Positions 18,110-33,660 of a DNA stretch of 64,000 bases are shown here, one piece after another. Both the position numbers and the translations under genes were made by a program. Below the pieces are notes generated by a model. The model did not search any database. It was not told the origin of the DNA and saw only the letters and a program-made list of their open reading frames with translations. Source of the DNA: a virus; the IMG/VR virus record IMGVR_UViG_3300032677_000029, positions 1 through 64,000 of that record; one strand, 5' to 3'. Every line of letters begins with the position of its first letter. Within the stretch, counting starts at the first letter, position 1.

Positions 18110-18123
18110 TTCCCGTTCGGGAA
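18110..18123. repeat. palindrome TTCCCGTTCGGGAA, copy 1
   Basis: Six-base arms TTCCCG and CGGGAA around TT. It lies five bases upstream of the proposed late -35 element, where an activator could contact polymerase. An identical copy follows 49 bp away. Confidence 0.55.
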
Positions 18124-18158
18124 GATTTAGTTGTTTTTGCTTATTTTTTAGGCATTTA

Positions 18159-18172
18159 TTCCCGTTCGGGAA
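18159..18172. repeat. palindrome TTCCCGTTCGGGAA, copy 2
   Basis: Identical to the copy at 18110-18123. The start-to-start spacing of 49 bp is close to five helical turns, so two dimers could sit on the same face of the DNA. An operator role is inferred. Confidence 0.55.
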
Positions 18173-18604: not shown

Positions 18605-18619
18605 TACTGTCTGACAGTA
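18605..18619. repeat. ATACTGTCNGACAGTAY palindrome, copy 1
   Basis: TACTGTC-T-GACAGTA, 19 bp upstream of the -35 of the promoter that serves the orphan gene at 18725. The placement is upstream-activator-like rather than overlapping. Confidence 0.85.
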
Positions 18620-18638
18620 CGGGAAAATCAAATACCCC

Positions 18639-18667
18639 TTGACACAGGGCTAAGGTACAGGCACAAT
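18639..18667 (+). promoter_or_regulatory. rightward promoter for the orphan gene
   Basis: TTGACA (18639-18644), 17 bp, then CACAAT (18662-18667, four of six consensus). Transcription would start near 18674 and give a short leader before the strong ribosome binding site AAGGAG at 18712. A consensus -35 and correct spacing support it. Confidence 0.65.
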
Positions 18668-18724
18668 AGAGTCATCGGTTCGGGACATATTGTTTACGAC
18701 GATATCCTTACAAGGAGTTTTAAA

Positions 18725-19213
18725 ATGACTGTTAAATTAACTGTTCAAGAAGCATTGGCTCAATCTGTTGCAAACAACATCTTGACCGCAAGTAACGCAA
18801 CACAGGCTATCGACAAGGACTGTCAAGCTATCCGCAAGGCACGCAAGAATAAGCCTTTAGGTACTGTCAAGAATGGTTGCGCCGTAATGATCCGTTTTGT
18901 AGAGGTATTGAGCAAAGCGGGTAAGGCTGAACAAACTGTCAAGAACTTAGCGACAGCGTTTCGCAAGGCAGTAAATGACGGCGTGCCATTCAGTATGAAT
19001 GCATACCGCAAACCCGTAGCAAAGGGCGCACAGACTAGCCCTAAAGCAAAGGGCGCAAAGGTAGCTAGTGTGAACTTTAAGGGCGACGCAAGCGTTGATG
19101 ACATTGTCAAGGGTTTACGCAACTTGTTTAATAAGTTCAAGACTGATGACAAGACCGCAACTCTAGCCAGCTTCTTACTTGATGGATTAGATGAGTACGA
19201 AGAGAGCAAGTAA
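18725..19213 (+). CDS. monocistronic early protein, no recognised family
   Basis: A 162-residue, basic, helical protein (MTVKLTVQEALAQSVANNIL, CQAIRKARKNKPLGTVKNG, TVKNLATAFRKAVNDGVPFS) with a Lys/Ala-rich linker (residues 98-116) and an acidic C-terminal helix domain ending LDGLDEYEESK. It has its own promoter, a good ribosome binding site and a strong terminator, and is flanked by the first two copies of the dispersed palindrome. Two helical domains joined by a basic linker would suit a DNA-binding or DNA-organising protein. It is a candidate reader of the palindrome, but no helix-turn-helix is identifiable. Confidence 0.7.
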   Translation: MTVKLTVQEALAQSVANNILTASNATQAIDKDCQAIRKARKNKPLGTVKNGCAVMIRFVEVLSKAGKAEQTVKNLATAFRKAVNDGVPFSMNAYRKPVAKGAQTSPKAKGAKVASVNFKGDASVDDIVKGLRNLFNKFKTDDKTATLASFLLDGLDEYEESK

Positions 19214-19230
19214 TACCCGAGCAGTCAAGA

Positions 19231-19257
19231 CCCCGCCTAATAAGCGGGGTTTTTTTT
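19231..19257 (+). terminator. intrinsic terminator after the orphan gene
   Basis: CCCCGC (19231-19236), a 7-base loop, GCGGGG (19244-19249) and eight T. It lies 17 bp past the stop at 19213 and isolates this gene from the downstream origin region. A second perfect hairpin GCCCTA-AAA-TAGGGC follows at 19259-19273. Confidence 0.88.
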
Positions 19258-19422
19258 CGCCCTAAAATAGGGCAGGAACTGGTGTCATCTAGGTCGGCGA
19301 AGCCGACAGGTTTAAATTCTTTTTGCTCTTGCTTTTTCTTTTTGAAGGGCGTGATGAACAAGGTCAGCGAGGGTGCGGGCGAAGTCGGCGAGGCGCAACT
19401 AATAGGGTAAACCCTAACGAAA

Positions 19423-19437
19423 TACTGTCTGACAGTA
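19423..19437. repeat. ATACTGTCNGACAGTAY palindrome, copy 2
   Basis: Centre base T. It sits 13 bp before the first AGTGAAC-type iteron and thus borders the candidate origin on its left side. Confidence 0.85.
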
Positions 19438-19450
19438 CGAAACCAACTTT

Positions 19451-19878
19451 GTTCACTGTGTTCACTCATGTTCACTGGTGAGTGAACAGACTTTTGGTGC
19501 GATGCAACACTCGCAAACCCTTGTTTTATATACTCTTTCTTTCTTTTATTTATTATAATATTTAGTAGTGTTCACTTGTTCACTCACTTTTGAAATGTAT
19601 GAAGGGTAAAATTTCCTGAGCCTTTACATTGTTAAGTTTGATACTGTCTGACAGTACGGCAGAAAGACCCTTTTCTTAGGTGTCATACTTTTGTTCACGA
19701 GTGAACATGACCCATTAAACTCTCGTAACCTATTGAATCCACAAGTAAATACCTTGTTCCTAAGCGAGTGAACATTGGTGAACAAAACCCCCAAACGAGT
19801 GAACAAAGTAGGCGAAGCCTTAACACAGTAAAGGGAGAGGAGAAATAAAAAAAGATGTTTTGAGTTTCTCGAGTGAAC
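19451..19878. repeat. iteron cluster with AT-rich stretch: candidate replication origin
   Basis: The heptamer GTTCACT / AGTGAAC occurs exactly ten times, at 19451, 19460, 19470, 19481, 19570, 19578, 19700, 19767, 19798 and 19872, with near-matches at 19693 (GTTCACG, forming GTTCACGAGTGAAC) and 19777 (GGTGAAC). The first three have 9-10 bp spacing, about one helical turn, in one orientation; copies right of 19690 are mostly in the opposite orientation. A very AT-rich run (about 19521-19568) lies between the arrays, as a DNA-unwinding element would. This is typical of iteron origins. The initiator is not known. Confidence 0.6.
19642..19656. repeat. ATACTGTCNGACAGTAY palindrome, copy 3
   Basis: Centre base T. 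It lies inside the iteron region, between the AT-rich stretch and the right-hand iterons. Confidence 0.85.
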
Positions 19879-19984
19879 AAATCCCCCAAACATGAAACCA
19901 GTTTTTACAAGAAGCCCACCAACTGCACAACCCCACCGAACCCGAATACCGACCTGATTAAACCCGAGTAACCGAAAGACCCTA

Positions 19985-20013
19985 TTGACACAGCCTTGAC
20001 ATAGCGGTATAAT
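19985..20013 (+). promoter_or_regulatory. perfect sigma-70 promoter of the main early operon
   Basis: TTGACA (19985-19990), 17 bp, TATAAT (20008-20013): both hexamers are perfect. A second TTGACA at 19996-20001 is too close to act as a -35 for the same -10. Transcription from about 20020 would pass a palindrome copy, the boxA-like element and the folded leader before the first gene at 20516. Confidence 0.85.
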
Positions 20014-20058
20014 AGAGGGGTAGAGTCGAGTTGAGTCAAGGGACACAACAAAACCAAA

Positions 20059-20073
20059 TACTGTCGGACAGTA
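20059..20073. repeat. ATACTGTCNGACAGTAY palindrome, copy 4
   Basis: The only copy with centre base G. It lies 45 bp past the -10 of the early promoter, about 40 bases into the transcript. The same layout (promoter, then palindrome about 50 bp on) recurs at 22916. Confidence 0.85.
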
Positions 20074-20163
20074 TTAGAAGCGGGAAACACCACGATTAAG
20101 TTCACGGGTGCAACGGGTAGGTAGCTACCCCAACAAGCTTTTAATCCTTGCCTCAATAGTATC

Positions 20164-20175
20164 GTTCTTTAAAAA
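20164..20175 (+). promoter_or_regulatory. boxA-like antitermination element
   Basis: GTTCTTTAAAAA in the leader of the main early transcript closely resembles the boxA of betaproteobacterial rRNA leaders (and the E. coli rrn boxA TGCTCTTTAACA). boxA RNA binds NusB-NusE and helps polymerase read through terminators. In a phage leader it would favour transcription of the long operon. Sequence similarity is seen; function is inferred. Confidence 0.5.
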
Positions 20176-20197
20176 TTAGTTAAATGCTTAGCGGTGC

Positions 20198-20345
20198 GGG
20201 GGAATACAGACCCCAAACCAATGCTGAGTGCAGAGTAGGCGTAGCCTGAGTGTACGGCGAGCAGTATCTCTGCGGGTGTAATAAGTAATGGGAATGGGTA
20301 GGTTTTACTAAACCAACCGAAAAGGCGAAATACTGTCAGACAGTA
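20198..20345 (+). ncRNA. folded leader RNA of the early operon
   Basis: Several hairpins can form in the transcript: GGGG (20199-20202) with CCCC (20211-20214); GCAGAG (20230-20235) with CTCTGC (20268-20273), enclosing AGGC-GTA-GCCT (20237-20247); GGTTT-TACT-AAACC near 20302-20315; and the palindrome at 20331. It starts soon after the boxA-like element. Comparison with put or nut-type antitermination RNAs is reasonable, but no sequence match is claimed. Confidence 0.4.
20331..20345. repeat. ATACTGTCNGACAGTAY palindrome, copy 5
   Basis: Centre base A. It lies in the leader, 170 bp before the first gene of the early operon. Confidence 0.85.
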
Positions 20346-20515
20346 TCAGACCCTTAAAAACCTAACCCTTCCAACCACACTTTACTTATCCACCCCATGC
20401 CCTTAACCTCTAACAAGAACTGCGACAAACTAGCAGAGGGCAAACAAACAAAGAGCGTTTTGAGGTCAGGTTAGAAATAGCCTGACTGATTGAGCGTTTT
20501 TAAAAGGAGGTAGAA

Positions 20516-20611
20516 ATGAAGGAGATGTTATTAGTATGGCTTTGGGCAGTCATAGGGGTTTTTACCTATGTACTTTTTATGTGGACTTTGAAATTATTGG
20601 AGGTGTTATGA
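20516..20611 (+). CDS. 31-residue membrane peptide, first gene of the early operon
   Basis: A short frame starting MKEMLLVWLWAVIGVFTYVL and ending KLLEVL, essentially one membrane helix. A very strong ribosome binding site (AAAAGGAGG) lies before the ATG at 20516. Its stop overlaps the next start (ATGA at 20608). Being first in the early operon, it could alter the host membrane, for example in exclusion or lysis control. No family is recognised. Confidence 0.6.
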   Translation: MKEMLLVWLWAVIGVFTYVLFMWTLKLLEVL

Positions 20612-20811
20612 AAAATATGTGTAGGTGTTGTGGAGATGAGTACCCTATTGGTAGGTGGGAACTAGGCTATAAGTTTTGCCTAGACTGTGGGGTAGATATA
20701 GCAAAATCGGTGGCAGAGGGATTTACAGTAGCACCACTAAACAAATCAAACTACTACTATATCCACGACCCAAAAACCCTAAAAGAACTTAACCCTAAGA
20801 GGACAACATGA
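20608..20811 (+). CDS. small zinc-ribbon protein
   Basis: A 67-residue protein starting MKNMCRCCGDEYPIGRWELG with CRCC (residues 5-8) and a second pair CLDC (27-30), the spacing of a zinc ribbon. The C-terminal half is polar. I start it at 20608 because that ATG overlaps the previous stop and has GGAGG in front. Small zinc ribbons of phages often bind nucleic acids or host transcription proteins; the target is not known. Confidence 0.6.
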   Translation: MKNMCRCCGDEYPIGRWELGYKFCLDCGVDIAKSVAEGFTVAPLNKSNYYYIHDPKTLKELNPKRTT

Positions 20812-21017
20812 AAAAAGGTAACGACAACAAGGCTCTAATTAAAAAGATGTTGGGAGATACGCTTGATGAGACTTTTGTACTTAGCGCCATCGAGATGTAC
20901 TGCAACGAGATACTGTCAGACAGTACGGATTGGGGTAATAAATCCCTCATCAATCAAACCCTATGGCAGACGATAGCAAGTCAGAACCTAGCAATTATGG
21001 AGGAACACTACAAATGA
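20808..21017 (+). CDS. small early protein containing a palindrome copy
   Basis: A 69-residue helical, acidic protein (KALIKKMLGDTLDETFVLSA, IEMYCNEILSDSTDWGNKS). The ILSDST segment (about residues 35-40) is encoded by the palindrome at 20911. The same six residues, in the same frame, appear in the unrelated protein at 25556-25762. ATGA overlaps link it to both neighbours. Function unknown. Confidence 0.55.
   Translation: MKKGNDNKALIKKMLGDTLDETFVLSAIEMYCNEILSDSTDWGNKSLINQTLWQTIASQNLAIMEEHYK
20911..20925. repeat. ATACTGTCNGACAGTAY palindrome, copy 6 (inside a gene)
   Basis: Centre base A, within the gene at 20808-21017. It contributes codons for I-L-S-D-S-T; the coding sequence tolerates the site without interruption. 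Confidence 0.85.
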
Positions 21018-21289
21018 GAGGGTACACGCAAAAGGAACGGCTAACAGTCGAACCAGTAATGACCCTCGAACAGATTGCTGACATTATGGGCATGAGTCGG
21101 GAAAGGGTGCGTCAGATAGAAGCAAGTGCATTGGGCAAGTGCCACAAGATACTACGCAGAAAGGGTTATTCCCCCGAGGATTTCTTTTCAGCCCTTAAAT
21201 ACACTAAACCTATCAAACCAAGCGAAACAGGCGAAGCAAGTGAATACGAACTGATGTATGACAAGGAGGAAGAAGATGAGCGTAACTGA
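21014..21289 (+). CDS. sigma-70 region 4-like DNA-binding protein
   Basis: A 91-residue protein. MTLEQIADIMGMSRERVRQI (about residues 17-36) and EASALGKCHKILRRKGY form a canonical sigma region 4 helix-turn-helix, the domain that reads the -35 element; SRERVRQIE is diagnostic. No region 2 is present, so it is not a complete sigma factor. A second copy of the theme lies at 33466-33660. It could redirect host polymerase, for instance to the late promoter with its poor -35. The start at 21014 overlaps the upstream stop; a longer frame from 20963 is possible. Confidence 0.7.
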   Translation: MRGYTQKERLTVEPVMTLEQIADIMGMSRERVRQIEASALGKCHKILRRKGYSPEDFFSALKYTKPIKPSETGEASEYELMYDKEEEDERN

Positions 21290-21542
21290 ATACAGAATGG
21301 GTAAACCCAAGACCTCTAAGGATAAACCCTTAAAGACAATTAGACAGAACTCACCCAATGAGCCAATGGAACTAACGGCTAAATTGGCGAAGGCGGACAC
21401 GGCGCAAGCTAAGCGGGAACTGGTGTCGCTCGATATGGGTGGGCTTTTTTATGCGTTTGGGGAAAAGCGTAGGGCATGGCAAGGGTGGTTAAGTTATCAA
21501 GAAAACATGGGAGAAGAAAATGGCACTAAAACGACTAAATAA
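21276..21542 (+). CDS. small basic early protein, unknown
   Basis: An 88-residue protein starting MSVTEYRMGKPKTSKDKPLK, with LTAKLAKADTAQAKRELVSL in the middle and GGLFYAFGEKRRAWQGWLSY near the end. The ATG at 21276 has AAGGAGG at the right distance. It overlaps the end of the sigma-like gene by 14 bases and the next gene by 23. No family is recognised. The C-terminal aromatic stretch may be a binding surface. Confidence 0.55.
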   Translation: MSVTEYRMGKPKTSKDKPLKTIRQNSPNEPMELTAKLAKADTAQAKRELVSLDMGGLFYAFGEKRRAWQGWLSYQENMGEENGTKTTK

Positions 21543-21810
21543 AAGTAACAAGAAACAAACGGCTAAGTGGGCTTACTTGGGGGAAACAGACCCCGCACAG
21601 TTTATCCACAGCAACAAGACCCATCGGACTGTAAGCGAAGCGTTTAGAGATGCTGAGTATGCACAGTCTTTTTGGAAAAGTAAGACCGACTGGGAAGAAG
21701 CGGTTGAGTTCATAGAGTTAGCGGTTATTGGTGGTATGTGGACTCTAGTAGTAGGTGGTGCAGTTTTAGCAGTTCTGTATTGGTTAGCCAAGCCATTACT
21801 TGGCGGGTAG
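21520..21810 (+). CDS. single-pass membrane protein, unknown
   Basis: A 96-residue protein. A basic N-terminal part (MALKRLNKSNKKQTAKWAYL) and a helical middle are followed by one strong membrane segment at about residues 68-90 (AVIGGMWTLVVGGAVLAVLY). This gives a tail-anchored topology with most of the chain in the cytoplasm. The ribosome binding site is GGAGAA. The function cannot be told; it ends the first early gene cluster, with a palindrome copy right after. Confidence 0.6.
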   Translation: MALKRLNKSNKKQTAKWAYLGETDPAQFIHSNKTHRTVSEAFRDAEYAQSFWKSKTDWEEAVEFIELAVIGGMWTLVVGGAVLAVLYWLAKPLLGG

Positions 21811-21819
21811 TAAACGACA

Positions 21820-21834
21820 TACTGTCAGACAGTA
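21820..21834. repeat. ATACTGTCNGACAGTAY palindrome, copy 7
   Basis: Centre base A, in the 57-bp gap between the membrane-protein gene and the gene at 21868, before its ribosome binding site. No promoter is seen in the gap. Confidence 0.85.
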
Positions 21835-21867
21835 TTTAACAACATCTTTTAAATTAGGAGAATCAAA

Positions 21868-22830
21868 ATGAGTTTAGATATGTACAAGCACTTTAAAGAA
21901 CGTTACGACAATACCAAGCCCATTCGTGGCAGAGCAGTAGAGTGCAAACCAATCGCCAAGCGAGCACGAGATTGGGAACAAGTAGTTAAGCGCTATGTAG
22001 TAGAAGACGGCGCACTTGAGACGGAAGGTGTAATGGCATACGGCGCACACCTATACCAAACCGACTGCGTTATGTATATGCCAAACGGAGATGTGCATAT
22101 AAAGACAGGTGGGTACGCTACCCCAACAACGGCGGAGTTTATCGAAAGATATATACCTCGTGATATGCGTTGCTATAAGAAATACAATAAAGTTTGGTTG
22201 GACTACAAGGGTCAGGCTTATCCAATCGACTCGACCAAACCAACAATCCTAGCCTACAACAAGTTTATAGATACCTATGCTATCGAGAACCCACTACCAG
22301 TACATCAAAAAGTTATCGACAGAACCAAGATTAAAGAGGCTCGAGAGAAACTAAATGCGTTCCGTAACTATGCCAAGATCATGCTTAAACTTGCTGATGG
22401 GTGGTTAAGTAATGACCTAGTAGAGCTACACGCAGAGCCACATGGACAACATAGGGACTATTGGGGTCGTAGAGCATACAGGCTAGGTGATGAAGTAATG
22501 CGTAGCTATGAGATGTCAGGGTCAGTAAGTATCAAGACAGCAGAGAAAGTATACGAAGCCCTAAGCACCGAAGACGAAACGCAATTCCCTAAACTTCTTT
22601 GTCTAATCTGTTCGGGTAGTGATGCCGAGGAAAATCGAGTAGTTAAGACAGAGCAAGTAGAGCGCAAAGACTATCGAGGCAATCCGATAATGGAGACGAT
22701 CACGACTAGGGAATACAAGTATAAGTACACGACTGTCGATAATCGTATCAACTTCTTTATTAAGAAAGCGTGTGATGTGTACACAACTAAGGTAGTCCCT
22801 GCGGGTAAGGTAATGACAAACCTATTATGA
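21868..22830 (+). CDS. conserved hypothetical early protein
   Basis: A 320-residue protein. It contains ALETEGVMAYGAHLYQTDCV, MPNGDVHIKTGGYATPTTAE, a central helical region (AREKLNAFRNYAKIMLKLAD) and a C-terminal RINFFIKKACDVYTTKVVP. Large uncharacterised proteins of this kind occur near AAA/VWA cassettes in aquatic phages. No catalytic motif is recognised. It is followed by a new promoter, so it may end the first transcription unit. Confidence 0.6.
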   Translation: MSLDMYKHFKERYDNTKPIRGRAVECKPIAKRARDWEQVVKRYVVEDGALETEGVMAYGAHLYQTDCVMYMPNGDVHIKTGGYATPTTAEFIERYIPRDMRCYKKYNKVWLDYKGQAYPIDSTKPTILAYNKFIDTYAIENPLPVHQKVIDRTKIKEAREKLNAFRNYAKIMLKLADGWLSNDLVELHAEPHGQHRDYWGRRAYRLGDEVMRSYEMSGSVSIKTAEKVYEALSTEDETQFPKLLCLICSGSDAEENRVVKTEQVERKDYRGNPIMETITTREYKYKYTTVDNRINFFIKKACDVYTTKVVPAGKVMTNLL

Positions 22831-22837
22831 GTGGGTA

Positions 22838-22866
22838 TTGACACAGGGGTAGCTTAGCTGTATAAT
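22838..22866 (+). promoter_or_regulatory. perfect sigma-70 promoter for the AAA/VWA cassette
   Basis: TTGACA (22838-22843), 17 bp, TATAAT (22861-22866). It begins eight bases after the stop at 22830. Transcription from about 22873 would pass a palindrome copy about 45 bases in. The match in strength to the promoter at 19985 suggests both are early host-polymerase promoters. Confidence 0.85.
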
Positions 22867-22915
22867 AGTAGTATAAGTTATAAAAGTAGTAGAAGTTAGT
22901 GGGGTCGTAGCCTAA

Positions 22916-22930
22916 TACTGTCAGACAGTA
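22916..22930. repeat. ATACTGTCNGACAGTAY palindrome, copy 8
   Basis: Centre base A, with extended arms AATACTGTC/GACAGTATT. It is followed by GGGTTTTTTG, so in RNA it could form a short stem (loop TCAGA) and T-run, a weak attenuator. It lies 49 bp after the -10 at 22861. Confidence 0.85.
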
Positions 22931-22986
22931 TTGGGTTTTTTGTTTAGTAGGTTTGTATTTTTTAATTTTAAAACAAGGAGAAGTAT

Positions 22987-24096
22987 ATGAGTATCAAGTT
23001 CGGAAGTTCTTTATCTTTAAACGAGTTCGCCAATGCTATCGCAACTGTTGGCTCTGATGTAACCATTATCGGTCAGGGAGAGCCCGGGATTGGTAAGTCT
23101 AGTATGTTAAAGACTGTTGCCAAGCGATTCCCTGATTACGAGCTAGCCTATATCGACTGTACCTTATTAGACCTAGGTGACTTTGCCCTTCCGTATACGG
23201 AACTGGCTTCAGGGGATAGTAACTTAAAAGTTACCAAGTTCGCACCAAACGCAAGGTTTAAATTTCAATCGGGCAAGCCTGTAATCGTTATGCTTGATGA
23301 GATTGGTAAGGCTATGAAGGCGGTTAAGAATGTCCTTCTTACCTTGATGTTGGAAAAGCGTATTGGTGATGTAGCTTTACCCGAAGGCTCAATCGTGTTT
23401 GGTACAACTAACCTAGCAACTGATGGGGTAGGTGATTCGTTAGAGGCTCATGCTCGGAATCGTGTTTGCTTTGTGACTGTGCGTAAACCCCATGCTGGCT
23501 TTGGTGCTGATGGCTCACTCGATGCAGACTCTTGGGGTGCTTGGGCGGTTGAGAATGATATTGCACCTGAGATTATTGCGTGGGTTAAACAATTCCCTCA
23601 TGCACTCGAGTCGTATACTGACCCTGCTCAAAAAGATAATGCGTACATCTTTAACCCAACTAAGGCGGGACAGTCAGCATTTGTAACCCCTCGGTCCTTG
23701 GAGAAAGCAAGCCATATCTCTAAGAAGCGTGCATTACTGGGTGACTCTGTAACTATCTCGGCTTTGGCGGGTACTATCGGTGAGAGTGCGGCTCGTGATA
23801 TGCAAGCGTTCTTTACTGTGGTAGATAAGCTACCTACATGGGAAGCAATTATGGATAGCCCTGCAACTGCAAAAGTTCCTGATGATGCGGTAGCTAAATG
23901 TATCTTAGTGTTCTCAGCTATTACTCGTGTGGATAAGGAGTCGTTACCTAAGTGGCTTAAGTATGCAGATAGATTAGACAAAGAACTTCAAGCGTTGTTT
24001 GCTCGTAGTGTGGTGAAGTCTTCATCTAAGCAAGCTATGGCGGTGTCCAATAAAGAGTTCGTGAAGTGGGCTACTGATAACCAATGGTTGTTTTAA
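22987..24096 (+). CDS. MoxR-like AAA+ ATPase
   Basis: A 369-residue protein. Walker A GEPGIGKS at residues 31-38, Walker B VIVMLDEIGK with D104-E105, a sensor-1-like IVFGTTNLATDGVGDSLEAH, and an arginine-bearing ARNRV segment after it. The C-terminal helical domain is about residues 220-369. MoxR ATPases act with VWA-domain partners as chaperones or metal-insertion machines, and the partner gene follows directly at 24131, separated by a palindrome copy. It would drive ATP-dependent remodelling of an unknown target. Ribosome binding site AAGGAG. Confidence 0.8.
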   Translation: MSIKFGSSLSLNEFANAIATVGSDVTIIGQGEPGIGKSSMLKTVAKRFPDYELAYIDCTLLDLGDFALPYTELASGDSNLKVTKFAPNARFKFQSGKPVIVMLDEIGKAMKAVKNVLLTLMLEKRIGDVALPEGSIVFGTTNLATDGVGDSLEAHARNRVCFVTVRKPHAGFGADGSLDADSWGAWAVENDIAPEIIAWVKQFPHALESYTDPAQKDNAYIFNPTKAGQSAFVTPRSLEKASHISKKRALLGDSVTISALAGTIGESAARDMQAFFTVVDKLPTWEAIMDSPATAKVPDDAVAKCILVFSAITRVDKESLPKWLKYADRLDKELQALFARSVVKSSSKQAMAVSNKEFVKWATDNQWLF

Positions 24097-24097
24097 A

Positions 24098-24112
24098 TAC
24101 TGTCAGACAGTA
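24098..24112. repeat. ATACTGTCNGACAGTAY palindrome, copy 9
   Basis: Centre base A, extended arms AATACTGTC/GACAGTATT. It begins one base after the stop of the ATPase gene and ends 18 bp before the VWA gene, filling most of the gap between two genes that must be co-expressed. Confidence 0.85.
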
Positions 24113-24130
24113 TTAACTAAGGAGAAACAA

Positions 24131-25321
24131 ATGACTAAACTAACAGCAGAACAACGAGTGCAGAAGTCCCATGTGGCTTTGATGAATGACCCTAAGTATT
24201 GTTTGTACTCGGGTATCTTCATGCTCGGTAAGACGGAGGTAAGTGATGATATTCCAACGGCTTGTACTGATGGGCGCAACACTTACTATGGTCGTAAGTT
24301 TGTGGATAACATGAAAGACTCAGACTTAAAAGGTTTGATCTTGCACGAGAATCTACACAAGGCTTTCCGTCATACAACAGTATGGAAACATCTTTATAAA
24401 CAACAGCCCCAACTAGCTAACATGGCGTGTGATTTTGTAATCAACTTAATGATTCATGATTCAGACCCACAAGGTAATGCTGTGACTCTACCCGAGGGCG
24501 GTTGCTTAGATGAGAAGTATCGTGGCATGGATGCGGGGGAGGTATTCAGAACTTTAATGCAACAAGCAAAACAAGGGGGTGGTAGTGGAAAAGGCGATGG
24601 TAGTGGCGAGGGCGAACAAGAGGGTGGCTCGGGCTTTGACGAACACGACTGGGAGGGTGCAGATGCCTTGTCCGAAGATGAGAAACAAACATTGGCTCGT
24701 GAAGTCGATCAAGCATTAAGACAGGGCGCACTACTAGCGGGTAAGCTAAATGGTAATGTACCACGAGAGATTACTGAGGCGATGGAAGCTAAGGTTAATT
24801 GGAAAGAAGTATTGAGAGACTTTGTATCCTCTATCTGTGCGGACAAGGATAACTCTACATGGCGCAGACCAAGCCGTAGGTGGGTAGATCAAGATATTTA
24901 TATGCCTAGTTCAATCGGTGAAGCGGTAGGTCGCATTGTTATAGCGATTGATATGTCAGGGTCGATTGGGCAAGCCGAGGTCGGGCAATTCTTAGGTGAA
25001 CTATTAAGTATCTGTAACCATGTTCAGCCCGAGGGTATTGACTTGATGTATTGGGACACAGAGGTATGTGCTCATGAGAAGTATGACCGAGGGGATTACG
25101 AGGCTATCCTTTCATCTACTAAACCTATGGGCGGTGGAGGTACAACTGCAAGATGTATTCCCAAGTATATCGAGGCTCACAAACTTAATCCCGAGTGTGT
25201 GATTGTCTTAACCGATGGCTATATAGATGGTTGGGGTGACTGGAAACATCCTGTCTTTTGGGGTATGACTAGCCACATGGTTGCACCTGTCGGTATTAGT
25301 GTTCGTATCGAGGGGGAATGA
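24131..25321 (+). CDS. VWA-domain protein with HExxH N-terminal domain (DUF2201-like)
   Basis: A 396-residue protein. The N-terminal domain carries HENLH at residues 72-76, the zincin-type HExxH of putative metallopeptidases fused to VWA domains. A Gly/Glu-rich linker lies at about residues 140-165. The C-terminal VWA domain has the MIDAS signature IDMSGSIG (D274, S276, S278), then GGGGTT and VIVLTDGYIDGWGDW with further metal-site residues. It is the expected partner of the AAA+ ATPase upstream, as in MoxR-VWA pairs. Peptidase activity is not certain. Its stop overlaps the next start. Confidence 0.8.
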   Translation: MTKLTAEQRVQKSHVALMNDPKYCLYSGIFMLGKTEVSDDIPTACTDGRNTYYGRKFVDNMKDSDLKGLILHENLHKAFRHTTVWKHLYKQQPQLANMACDFVINLMIHDSDPQGNAVTLPEGGCLDEKYRGMDAGEVFRTLMQQAKQGGGSGKGDGSGEGEQEGGSGFDEHDWEGADALSEDEKQTLAREVDQALRQGALLAGKLNGNVPREITEAMEAKVNWKEVLRDFVSSICADKDNSTWRRPSRRWVDQDIYMPSSIGEAVGRIVIAIDMSGSIGQAEVGQFLGELLSICNHVQPEGIDLMYWDTEVCAHEKYDRGDYEAILSSTKPMGGGGTTARCIPKYIEAHKLNPECVIVLTDGYIDGWGDWKHPVFWGMTSHMVAPVGISVRIEGE

Positions 25322-25569
25322 TGGCTATTGTAAATAGAGATGATATGAAGTCTATATTAGAAGAAAGTATGGGTGCTATTTTCGAGGAGGTTTATTCCCA
25401 ACATGGGCATATAGAGTATCGGTTAGAACAATGCGGTAAGTTATATCGAGTAAAAAAAACCCTGTGGGGTAATAACCTAAGACCCGAATATAAAACAGGT
25501 TGGTTAAAACTAAACGAAGCACAAGCAATTTTAAAACTAATGGAGGTAAGTGAAGATGGCACAGCCTAG
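25318..25569 (+). CDS. small early protein, unknown
   Basis: An 83-residue protein (NRDDMKSILEESMGAIFEEV, QCGKLYRVKKTLWGNNLRPE). It begins with two adjacent ATGs that overlap the VWA stop (ATGATGG), so it is translationally coupled to the cassette and may belong to it. Mixed alpha/beta, acidic N-terminal helix. No family is recognised. Confidence 0.55.
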   Translation: MMAIVNRDDMKSILEESMGAIFEEVYSQHGHIEYRLEQCGKLYRVKKTLWGNNLRPEYKTGWLKLNEAQAILKLMEVSEDGTA

Positions 25570-25762
25570 AGATTTTGCAACATTGATGGTGAAGATAGAT
25601 ACACGCAAGAAGTTTATAGAGTCAAAGAAGAAGATGGAGGGTCAGCTAGGGGTAACTCTAACCAACTCAAACGCATTAGATATTATGTGTGACCAAATAC
25701 TGTCAGACAGTACGAAGTTAACTTTAAAGTTAGTACCAATTAAACAAGGAGAATTAAAATGA
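25556..25762 (+). CDS. small early protein containing a palindrome copy
   Basis: A 68-residue basic protein starting MAQPRDFATLMVKIDTRKKF. The ATG at 25556 is chosen because GGAGG lies nine bases before it; a GTG two codons upstream is an alternative. Residues IMCDQILSDSTKLTLK include ILSDST, encoded by the palindrome at 25698 in the same frame as at 20911. Apart from this, the two proteins look unrelated. It overlaps both neighbours. Function unknown. Confidence 0.55.
   Translation: MAQPRDFATLMVKIDTRKKFIESKKKMEGQLGVTLTNSNALDIMCDQILSDSTKLTLKLVPIKQGELK
25698..25712. repeat. ATACTGTCNGACAGTAY palindrome, copy 10 (inside a gene)
   Basis: Centre base A. It lies near the 3' end of the gene at 25556, and 46 bp before the start of the gene at 25759, so it still occupies an upstream position relative to that larger gene. 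Confidence 0.85.
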
Positions 25763-26598
25763 TTGGAAGCAACGCTATGTTAGTCGACCTCAACATCTCT
25801 ATGTGGACAGGTCGCAAGATGGACAAGAAAGTATCTGAAGAAGTAGATGTAAGCAAGAGCACTAAGGCTCGTGCGGGTAACTATCACAAGAACTTATTGG
25901 CAGGGTCAGATAAGCTAGATAAGATTCAAAAGGTTGTTACTGCGGTGCGTGCATGGAACTACCAACAAACCTTACCTTGGTCAGATGGTGGCTCACGCTT
26001 ACTACCTATGAAATCTTTTTTTGATTACAAGGCTACGCTTGGTAACTATGAAGCGCAGTACAACACGGCGGTAGATGAGTTCTTAGAGGAATATCCGCAA
26101 CTGGTTTCATCTTCTGCGTTTACGCTTGGGGAACTTTTTGATCGTGGGGAATATCCCACAGCCGATAGCTTGCGTTCTAGGTTTGGGTTTAAGTATGTGT
26201 TCTGCCCTGTCCCTGATGCGGGTGATTTTAGAATAGATGTTGAGGAAACGGCTAAGCAAGAACTACAACAACAATACAAAGACTACTACGAAGGCAAGCT
26301 GGCTGATGCTATGAAAGATGCTTGGGATAGATTGCACAAGACCCTGACCCATCTAAGTGATCGTATGGATTACACAGATGAGAATAAAAAGAAGTTTTGG
26401 GATTCAACTATCACCAACGCAAGCGAACTCTGCGGACTTCTTACAAGTCTTAATGTGACTAATGACCCTAAGTTAGAAGCTATGCGTCAGAAGTTAGAGA
26501 AGGCTTTGGCGGGTGTAGAGCCATCACATATCAAAGAGTCCGAAGCTATCCGTAGTTCGGTTAAGTCTAAGGTAGATGAAATTCTAAATATGTTTTAA
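25759..26598 (+). CDS. DUF3150-like helical protein of the AAA/VWA cassette
   Basis: A 279-residue protein (MIGSNAMLVDLNISMWTGRK, SKSTKARAGNYHKNLLAGSD, FFDYKATLGNYEAQYNTAVD, FRIDVEETAKQELQQQYKDY). The opening, with LVDLNISMWTGRK, and the helical body resemble DUF3150-type proteins, which I recall beside CobS/MoxR-like ATPases and VWA proteins in phages. The name is tentative. The ATG overlaps the previous stop. It may be the third cassette member, a substrate or scaffold of the ATPase. No catalytic residues are seen. Confidence 0.6.
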   Translation: MIGSNAMLVDLNISMWTGRKMDKKVSEEVDVSKSTKARAGNYHKNLLAGSDKLDKIQKVVTAVRAWNYQQTLPWSDGGSRLLPMKSFFDYKATLGNYEAQYNTAVDEFLEEYPQLVSSSAFTLGELFDRGEYPTADSLRSRFGFKYVFCPVPDAGDFRIDVEETAKQELQQQYKDYYEGKLADAMKDAWDRLHKTLTHLSDRMDYTDENKKKFWDSTITNASELCGLLTSLNVTNDPKLEAMRQKLEKALAGVEPSHIKESEAIRSSVKSKVDEILNMF

Positions 26599-26608
26599 GG
26601 AGAGAGGG

Positions 26609-26788
26609 ATGATTACTTTATTTGTGGTTGGATATATTGTTTATATGTTTGTTGGGATTATGGCTATTGGTCATTTACTTGAGAAGTATTTAAACGATGA
26701 TAAAACTTGCGTTGGATGCTGGCACTTATTGTTTGGGTATGTGTGGACATTTTTACCTATAACTTTATTTTTTGATTTTAGGGGGTGA
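26609..26788 (+). CDS. 59-residue two-helix membrane protein
   Basis: A short gene starting MITLFVVGYIVYMFVGIMAI, with a CVGCWH pair between two membrane helices and an ending FFDFRG. GGAGAGAGG precedes the ATG at 26609. The Cys pair in the connecting loop (residues 34-37) could bind metal or form a disulphide. No family is recognised. It lies between the cassette and the next hypothetical gene. Confidence 0.6.
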   Translation: MITLFVVGYIVYMFVGIMAIGHLLEKYLNDDKTCVGCWHLLFGYVWTFLPITLFFDFRG

Positions 26789-26789
26789 A

Positions 26790-27206
26790 ATGGGATATCG
26801 AAGCGAAGTAGGGTTTTGTATTGAGTTTACTAAAGACCCCGAGGAGTTTGTTGCACTGATGCGAGTAGATGGTAGAGATGCGTTTAAAGACTTCTTACTT
26901 TATATGTATGTTGAAGAACTACCTAATGCCACACCCGAAGAAGAAGAGCCGTATGGGTATGTGCATTTCTATCACAATCATTGGAAGTGGTATGAGGATT
27001 CGGTTTCGGGGTTTAATGACTTAATAAACATGGCTGAGGAGTTTGATGATAAGTTTAAGGCTAAGTTCGTTAGGCTTGGAGAGGAAGCAGACGATACAGA
27101 AGAAGAATGGTATAACGACGATAACTATGAACTAGAGTATCCCTATATGATTAGATCAATAGATACAGGGGTAAAGCTAGAAAACCTAAAGAAAGTGGAG
27201 GAATAA
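26790..27206 (+). CDS. acidic early protein, unknown
   Basis: A 138-residue, strongly acidic protein starting MGYRSEVGFCIEFTKDPEEF. The ATG at 26790 has GGGGG just before it; an upstream in-frame start at 26772 lies within the previous gene. Features: VHFYHNHWKWYEDSVSGFND and a C-terminal EEEWYNDDNYELEYPYMIRS. The MGYRSEV start is recurrent in phage and bacterial small proteins of unknown role. The acidic character could be DNA-mimic-like, but that is speculation. Confidence 0.55.
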   Translation: MGYRSEVGFCIEFTKDPEEFVALMRVDGRDAFKDFLLYMYVEELPNATPEEEEPYGYVHFYHNHWKWYEDSVSGFNDLINMAEEFDDKFKAKFVRLGEEADDTEEEWYNDDNYELEYPYMIRSIDTGVKLENLKKVEE

Positions 27207-27207
27207 A

Positions 27208-28017
27208 ATGCTACAACTAAACAACATAGATAAGACACAACTAAGCGAGCCTGTTGCTCAATTCTTAAATGCAATAGAGTTAAAGCACGCAAAACTACAA
27301 TACTGTCTGACAGTATCGGCAATTCAAAATCCAACCCGACCTGAGTTTTGGCAGTTAAGGTTTGAGGATACCCGCTTCCTTGGTGACTCTTCAATAGATC
27401 ATGTAGGCACAGTCGAGTGGACATATGGTAGCCGTAGCGAGAAAGAATATAAGGTTACATCTCGCAGGATTCAGAATGATCGGTTTGGGCATTGGGGTAA
27501 CGAGCACGCATCTCGTCGCTCTAAAGACATGAAGAAAGCCTTAAAGATTGCGGTGGAAACTATATCCCCATTTGAGTGGCACGAGATTAGTAATAAGGGC
27601 AGACGCCATGCAGAACAAGCACATGAAGGCTGGGCAAGAAAAGACCAAAAAGCCATACACCCTTTTTCTAGTGTGGGGTACGAGAAGATATACGAAGAGA
27701 TTAAGTACCTTGTAGGCATGGGAATTCAATTCAAAACTCAGGAGTTTAAAAATGCGGCAGCCGGAATGGAAGCCTACGAAGAGTTCCAACGCAAGATAGC
27801 AGTAAGGGCTAAGTTCGATACAGTAATAGTGCGCCCCGATAAAGCCGTATACATTCCCGATGGTCGTGCCTTAGAAGCTAAAGAGTTTGGCGCAGTTGAG
27901 GCGCTACCTGACAATACCAGAACTGGTATCGCTCTTCTAAAACTTGTTGGTAAAGACGAGCTATTACCCGAGGTAGGATACCGTAGTGGGGAAAACACCT
28001 ACTTCCTTTTGGTTTGA
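27208..28017 (+). CDS. early protein, unknown, carrying a palindrome copy near its start
   Basis: A 269-residue protein. Residues 31-37 (LQYCLTVS) cover the palindrome at 27301, here read in a different frame from the ILSDST copies. A central basic region (SRRIQNDRFGHWGNEHASRR, SKDMKKALKIAVETISPFEW) and a C-terminal beta domain (DTVIVRPDKAVYIPDGRALE) are visible. No family is recognised. GGAGG lies before the ATG. The -35 of a new promoter overlaps its stop codon. Confidence 0.55.
   Translation: MLQLNNIDKTQLSEPVAQFLNAIELKHAKLQYCLTVSAIQNPTRPEFWQLRFEDTRFLGDSSIDHVGTVEWTYGSRSEKEYKVTSRRIQNDRFGHWGNEHASRRSKDMKKALKIAVETISPFEWHEISNKGRRHAEQAHEGWARKDQKAIHPFSSVGYEKIYEEIKYLVGMGIQFKTQEFKNAAAGMEAYEEFQRKIAVRAKFDTVIVRPDKAVYIPDGRALEAKEFGAVEALPDNTRTGIALLKLVGKDELLPEVGYRSGENTYFLLV
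27301..27315. repeat. ATACTGTCNGACAGTAY palindrome, copy 11 (inside a gene)
   Basis: Centre base T, 93 bp inside the gene at 27208. It is the most rightward copy; none is found from here to 64 kb. Confidence 0.85.
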
Positions 28018-33482: not shown

Positions 33483-33660
33483 TCCGTGGCAATCGGATAT
33501 GACCCAACAAGAGGTCGCCGATGCTTTGGGTACTACAAGACAGGTAATTCAAGATATAGAGAAAAGAGCGTTGCGTAAACTAAGGAATGAATTGCGTAAA
33601 CGTGGCTATACATTAGATGATTTTTTTACATACAAAAAGAAGAGGATACCAAAAATATGA
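33466..33660 (+). CDS. second sigma-70 region 4-like protein
   Basis: A 64-residue protein with MTQQEVADALGTTRQVIQDI and EKRALRKLRNELRKRGYTLD: the sigma region 4 helix-turn-helix, here with TRQVIQDIE instead of SRERVRQIE. It shares the (R/K)(R/K)GY...(D/E)DFF ending with the protein at 21014, so they are likely paralogues. No other sigma domain. It could compete with or complement the first copy at promoter -35 elements. It lies right after the polymerase gene. Confidence 0.7.
   Translation: MSEKTNPWQSDMTQQEVADALGTTRQVIQDIEKRALRKLRNELRKRGYTLDDFFTYKKKRIPKI

Follow-up and report, generated by a model that had tools for sequence, protein, structure and literature searches.

The open reading frame (ORF) at 18725-19213 encodes what is very probably a sequence-specific DNA-binding protein, the reader of an array of palindromes in its own phage. 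In the fuller reading, to which we assign a probability of roughly 0.6, this protein would be an autoregulated repressor of early transcription of the roadblock type, stoperator-like in its action but unrelated as a protein. The evidence is drawn from sequence and comprises gene-motif co-occurrence, co-variation of protein and sites, natural domain swaps, promoter geometry and a weakened self-site, from which we infer binding, dimerisation and repression as the outcome. Co-occurrence, co-variation and domain swaps also speak for an earlier sequence-only reading, in which the gene product was thought to bind the palindromes and to serve either as an autoregulated early regulator or in DNA organisation.

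The window, that is, the whole stretch of 64,000 nucleotides that was analysed, is nearly the whole of a 64,147-base virus record. The gene and its own control elements within it are the following.

18605..18619, unstranded: palindrome 1, TACTGTCTGACAGTA, candidate auto-operator, centred at about -63 from the predicted start of the ORF promoter
18639..18667, + strand: promoter of the ORF, sigma-70-type, TTGACA-17-CACAAT, 10/12 consensus match
18711..18718, + strand: Shine-Dalgarno region of the ORF (AAGGAG)
18725..19213, + strand: ORF for the candidate palindrome-binding protein, 162 aa with an ATG start, covered by the family alignment
19227..19256, + strand: intrinsic terminator of the ORF, ACCCCGC-N7-GCGGGGT and then T8

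The gene had been described as possessing its own promoter, strong ribosome binding site and terminator, and all three were recovered: the 10/12 promoter, whose position is kept in relatives, the AAGGAG motif, and a stem-loop of -15.8 kcal/mol that starts at about 19227-19230 and is followed by a run of eight T. The palindrome that had been placed 19 bp upstream of the promoter indeed ends exactly 19 bp before the -35 box, and the second flanking palindrome lies downstream of the ORF at 19423-19437. To the left of the ORF, a divergent control region contains two copies of TTCCCGTTCGGGAA, 49 bp apart (18110-18172).

The window palindrome, TACTGTC-N-GACAGTA, is 15 bp long with perfect arms and a free central base, and the candidate cognate site of the ORF protein was taken as TACTGTCAGACAGTA. 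Exactly 11 exact copies of TACTGTCNGACAGTA are present in the 64-kb window, all within 18605-27315; when up to three mismatches were allowed, 12 copies were counted against 2.9 expected, and none of 100 shuffles reached 12. Nine of the 11 exact copies are wholly noncoding, in a stretch that is only 26% noncoding (binomial p = 2e-4). No occurrence of the palindrome sequence was found in the literature searched. The remaining copies and the two perfect consensus promoters of this region are listed below.

19423..19437, unstranded: palindrome 2, exact copy
19642..19656, unstranded: palindrome 3, exact copy
19985..20013, + strand: perfect consensus promoter TTGACA-17-TATAAT in the noncoding region, 12/12
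20059..20073, unstranded: palindrome 4, centred at about +45 of the 19985 promoter
20331..20345, unstranded: palindrome 5, exact copy
20911..20925, unstranded: palindrome 6, within a 69-aa ORF (20808-21017)
21820..21834, unstranded: palindrome 7, intergenic, 33 bp before the ATG at 21868
22838..22866, + strand: perfect consensus promoter TTGACA-17-TATAAT before a MoxR-like ATPase gene, 12/12, kept across phages
22916..22930, unstranded: palindrome 8, centred at about +49 of the 22838 promoter
24098..24112, unstranded: palindrome 9, in the 34-bp gap from the ATPase stop to the next ATG
25698..25712, unstranded: palindrome 10, intergenic
27301..27315, unstranded: palindrome 11, inside gene 27208-28017, 93 bp into the gene

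On the coding strand the central base was A in 130 sites and T in 49. Palindrome 11 occupies the same in-gene place (93 bp) in several relatives and nearly always carries a central T, with A in the neighbouring sites. The central base is near-uniform per phage in the arrays of contigs L007 (T) and L083 (A), a pattern that resembles concerted evolution of the sites of one genome.

Gene and motif were compared across phages in both directions. An exact-palindrome scan of contigs returned many with arrays among the matches listed; wherever the left end of the array is included in the contigs mapped from these matches, the ORF family is present, and in those without the family the sequence ends before the gene's place. 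The ORF family occurs once, and once only, in each of the ten array records that cover this region, and in two array records without it the array runs off the contig end or begins inside the ATPase gene. The sites lie at the same junctions across contigs: ahead of the ORF-family gene, at several places in the noncoding DNA after it, ahead of the ATPase gene, in the gap that separates the ATPase from the gene after it, and within gene 27208-28017. In the opposite direction, every relative found has, before the gene, a palindrome of the type proper to that phage, either exact or departing from it by one or two mismatches, with the site centre approximately 85-130 bp before the ATG, and the array follows where the DNA suffices. 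Contig L162, fetched only by its array of TATAGTC palindromes, carries an ORF-family gene (E ~1e-23), and of the contigs with one site that came from scanning for TATAGTC and TAACGTC, the gene is present in L145 alone, which belongs to the family. The expected co-occurrence of gene and motif was borne out from either side, and the refuting case of a phage with the gene but no motif, looked for among all relatives found, was not seen.

The strongest evidence for the ORF product as the putative site reader is the co-variation of protein and sites. Relatives were fetched by protein alone and then screened for repeated perfect palindromes without naming a motif. At equivalent places, other clades carry palindromes with the half-sites TATAGTC (L141, and L162 by motif), TCAAGTC (five to eight copies in L286, L289 and L296), TTCACAC (eight copies in L299 and L300) and TTAAGTA (L285); spacers of 0 and 1 bp are mixed in the TATAGTC phages. 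A single perfect upstream site was found in L145 (TAACGTC) and in L281/L282 (TACTGGC), so that these two half-sites rest on one or two visible sites; beyond L145 the TAACGTC variant rests on one site, because the scan for it gave single-site contigs only. Related phages are non-independent observations, and it is the joint change of protein and site spelling across related viruses that marks the ORF protein as the probable reader.

Natural domain swaps point to the part of the protein that would do the reading. The N-domain of L289 is 80% identical to that of L286 and 35-38% identical to those of L141/L162, its C-domain is 89-93% identical to those of L141/L162, and its palindrome is that of L286. 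The L007 protein shares 79% identity with the window protein in the N-domain and 25% in the C-domain, and the two phages have the same palindrome. Between L299 and L011 the C-domains are 81% and the N-domains 46% identical, and the palindromes differ. These swaps in L289, L007 and L299 indicate that the palindrome spelling goes with the N-domain, and the apparent site specificity is seen to follow this domain. Within the alignment, read over few clades, an N-x-x-R motif (N92, R95) is kept in clades whose half-site ends in GTC and is absent in L281, L285 and L299, whose inner half-site bases differ.

The protein had been characterized as basic, bipartite and joined by a linker, which agrees with its overall pI of 9.75 and with the structure prediction of two helical parts and a disordered linker. 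Its layout is a basic N-domain (~1-93), a disordered K/A/G-rich linker (~94-120) and an acidic helical-hairpin C-domain (~121-162); the pI is 10.1 for residues 1-95, 10.7 for the linker (96-120, zero acidic residues) and 4.4 for the acidic C-terminus (121-162). The AlphaFold models (mean pLDDT 75-77, pTM 0.49; moderate confidence) contain helices at 7-39, 53-64 and 69-85 and a helical hairpin at 124-161, and residues 95-112, with pLDDT below 50, form the disordered linker between the two helical parts. In the N-domain core of the family alignment G46, R80 and A82 are invariant and T71 and N92 near-invariant; the linker is variable and K/A/G-rich, and the C-terminal segment shows L131-R132, L147, D153 and D156.

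Iterated searches of viral contigs, begun with the protein query and continued with growing alignments, found relatives in dozens of uncultured phage contigs, with identity down to ~25%. Sequence searches of Pfam, PHROGs and PDB gave no significant match, tblastn against annotated phages found no relative, and there was none in 84,980 bacterial and archaeal genomes at the sensitivity used. Fold searches with the AlphaFold models gave no significant match to a solved fold; the best match in the viral library was an uncharacterised phage protein (E 0.0019, below significance). The motif TVKNYATAFRK had raised the suspicion of an N-domain like the core-binding domain of integrases, but the profile matches remained sub-threshold: tyrosine recombinase core-binding (SAM-like) profiles reached E 0.006 for PF00589 in one relative and E 0.11 for PF13495, and the fold search against solved core-binding domains listed lambda integrase (1z1g) at E 5.2, with no clear match. 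REP/RAYT-like mobility was rejected for lack of a catalytic domain and because the sites are syntenic in position.

The placement of the sites relative to promoters bears on what binding would do. The early regions of the arrays typically have two perfect promoters, one lying in the noncoding stretch and the other ahead of the ATPase gene. Nearly all 12/12 promoters in the TACTGTC arrays have a site centred at a variable distance of +23 to +62, mostly +36 to +50, against 5% by chance; the 19985 promoter is kept across phages with its site at +44 to +62. For the ORF's own promoter, the site in relatives is at about -53 to -69. Some sites are at gene junctions without a promoter, as in the 34-bp gap at 24098. 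With sites downstream of transcription starts and at junctions, a bound protein would most simply block elongation.

The self-site is set apart from the others by its sequence as well. In 20 TACTGTC phages, with up to two mismatches allowed, the downstream sites were exact in 131 of 131 cases and 12 of 20 phages had a flawed site upstream of the ORF's own gene, the flaw usually affecting one half (Fisher p = 7e-13, a value that overstates independence because the phages are related). The self-site is also imperfect in L285, L286, L288, L296 and L299, and that of the window is intact. A weaker self-operator is what would be expected of a graded autoregulator.

Taken together, these features suggest the following course of events. 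The cognate site of the protein would be the array of 15-bp TACTGTC-N-GACAGTA palindromes in the early region of its own phage, with the basic N-domain contacting one 7-bp half-site; the acidic C-terminal helical hairpin on its flexible linker probably pairs two subunits, such that a dimer would read the palindrome. The ORF would be transcribed early from its own promoter, and the accumulating protein would come to occupy the perfect sites, both those that closely follow a consensus early promoter and those at junctions between genes, where RNA polymerase would most likely be blocked in a roadblock-type early shut-off. The ORF's own gene would be affected later or more weakly, its upstream site often being damaged in relatives.

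Next after roadblock repression ranks a palindrome-binding protein whose main work would be the organisation, partitioning or replication of DNA; the sites would then form an array of parS/ParB-like or nucleoid type, with its centre in the noncoding and possibly origin-like DNA at 19.25-20.5 kb. The sites do cluster in this 1.3-kb noncoding region, which is also home to ten AGTGAACA repeats, the array spans ~9 kb, and the linker is K-rich and flexible. However, ParB_N (PF02195) has no match in the record, the sites closely follow consensus promoters or occupy junctions between genes, and selective weakening of the self-site is the mark of graded gene control. This weakening, together with the promoter geometry, would favour a regulator over a DNA organiser, and we regard the latter as unlikely. 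The repeats themselves (AGTGAACA/TGTTCACT) number ten within 430 bp of noncoding sequence and lie on both strands (window 19450-19879; 12 in the window against 2.4 expected); they are iteron-like and are perhaps a replication origin or the sites of a second regulator. Quite improbable, in turn, is an activating or antiterminating protein that would turn early genes on rather than off, either as a class-I activator of its own promoter from near -60 or by loading itself onto RNA polymerase at about +45. Such action would accord with the self-site, which nearly all relatives have at -53 to -69 relative to a weaker promoter, a position that would suit an activator equally well, and with sites within the early transcribed region of strong promoters, but the self-site distances (-53, -56, -57, -59, -63, -67) are out of helical phase, the other promoters already match the consensus at 12/12 and need no activator, and one site per junction is more than antitermination requires. 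Fixed-phase class-I activation was dropped because these distances vary.

It is very improbable that the palindromes are RNA hairpins in early mRNAs (processing or protein-binding, boxB-like) and that the ORF protein binds RNA. Most sites would be within transcripts, site 24098 directly precedes a Shine-Dalgarno sequence, and the central base is biased by coding strand, an A-bias that one would not expect of a fully symmetric DNA site; pairing is also in excess at the first flanking base pair (126 against 95 expected), an excess that may partly reflect clade structure. Against this, the excess is nil at the second and third flanking pairs, the flanking preferences are dyad-symmetric, and an RNA stem would drift by compensatory changes, whereas the downstream sites are exact in 131/131 with two mismatches allowed. 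The auto-site, moreover, is upstream of the ORF promoter and outside its message, and this position, together with the fixed arms and dyad-symmetric flanks, favours duplex DNA. Hardly probable at all is binding by another phage or host protein with the ORF as a linked neighbour. The window does encode a sigma-region-4-like protein (20963-21289) and an HTH_3-like frame (33493), but these are found in 5/10 and 6/10 of the array records, respectively, compared to 10/10 for the ORF family, and in none of the TATAGTC or TTCACAC array records; the palindrome spelling also tracks the ORF N-domain through the domain swaps. The two short proteins (20963-21289 and 33493-33564) have sigma-region-4/HTH-like segments that are alike in motif (MSRERVRQIE; TTRQVIQDIE).

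Sequence comparison by itself links an unannotated protein family with a defined DNA site, in up to seven protein/site pairs; with the natural domain swaps and a candidate residue code, these make the pair directly testable. The system may offer a compact, re-targetable DNA-binding module, and stoperator-like control would be carried over to phages without an evident lysogenic programme. A broader joint reading, which we hold tentatively and give somewhat less than even odds, is that these proteins form a hitherto undescribed family of DNA-binding master regulators of phages, lacking any recognised fold for DNA binding, which would shut off early genes in apparently lytic phages via perfect palindromes, roughly twelve to a genome, placed at promoters and junctions; their specificity code would be re-writable (helix 69-85 for the outer bases, N92-x-x-R95 for the inner GTC) and the weakened self-operator would serve as a timer.

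The closest described parallel in mode of action is the cluster A mycobacteriophages (L5, Bxb1, Trixie), in which one repressor, a monomer with an HTH domain that maintains lysogeny, blocks elongation at some 30 dispersed stoperators (PMC6550527; PMC9283540). These sites are 13-bp, asymmetric, oriented with transcription and genome-wide, some at early promoters and most within transcription units; they co-diversify with the repressor, and a conserved site is located upstream of the regulator gene (PMC6550527; PMC9283540). The window system similarly appears to combine one candidate protein with many dispersed, co-varying sites within transcription units. In contrast, its sites are 15 bp long, perfectly palindromic and restricted to the early region, and its protein has no HTH family match in Pfam or PHROG. 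No tyrosine integrase (Phage_integrase) was found in the window record or ten related records, and a lysogenic role is thus without support from this search, which covered the tyrosine type of integrase. By analogy, the window system would work like stoperators while not being a member of the cluster A stoperator systems.

The Streptomyces phage phiC31 has near-identical inverted repeats dispersed in its early region and bound by one phage repressor, which is larger than the window protein and specific to temperate phages; the likeness to the dispersed early sites of the window is one of description. Phage N15 has a few dispersed inverted-repeat centromere sites, located in regulatory regions away from the gene for SopB, a ParB-family protein with a ParA partner; in contrast to SopB, ParB_N was not found in the window record. 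The nearest cultured phages HTVC027P, 023Pt_psg01 and DSL-LC04 have no such palindrome at least three times in the stretches examined. The cultured Synechococcus phage MinM2 (OQ594354; L278, 30000-65014) has a related terminase and similar MoxR-ATPase and VWA genes, and it carries ~16 copies of GGTTCAG-N-CTGAACC, mostly intergenic, two of which flank the short gene MM2_92. The MM2_92 product has no significant sequence similarity to the window family; the MinM2 array around this gene is apparently an undescribed analogue. The records Pag-Yong1 and Pra-JY27 have the same terminase match and length as MinM2.
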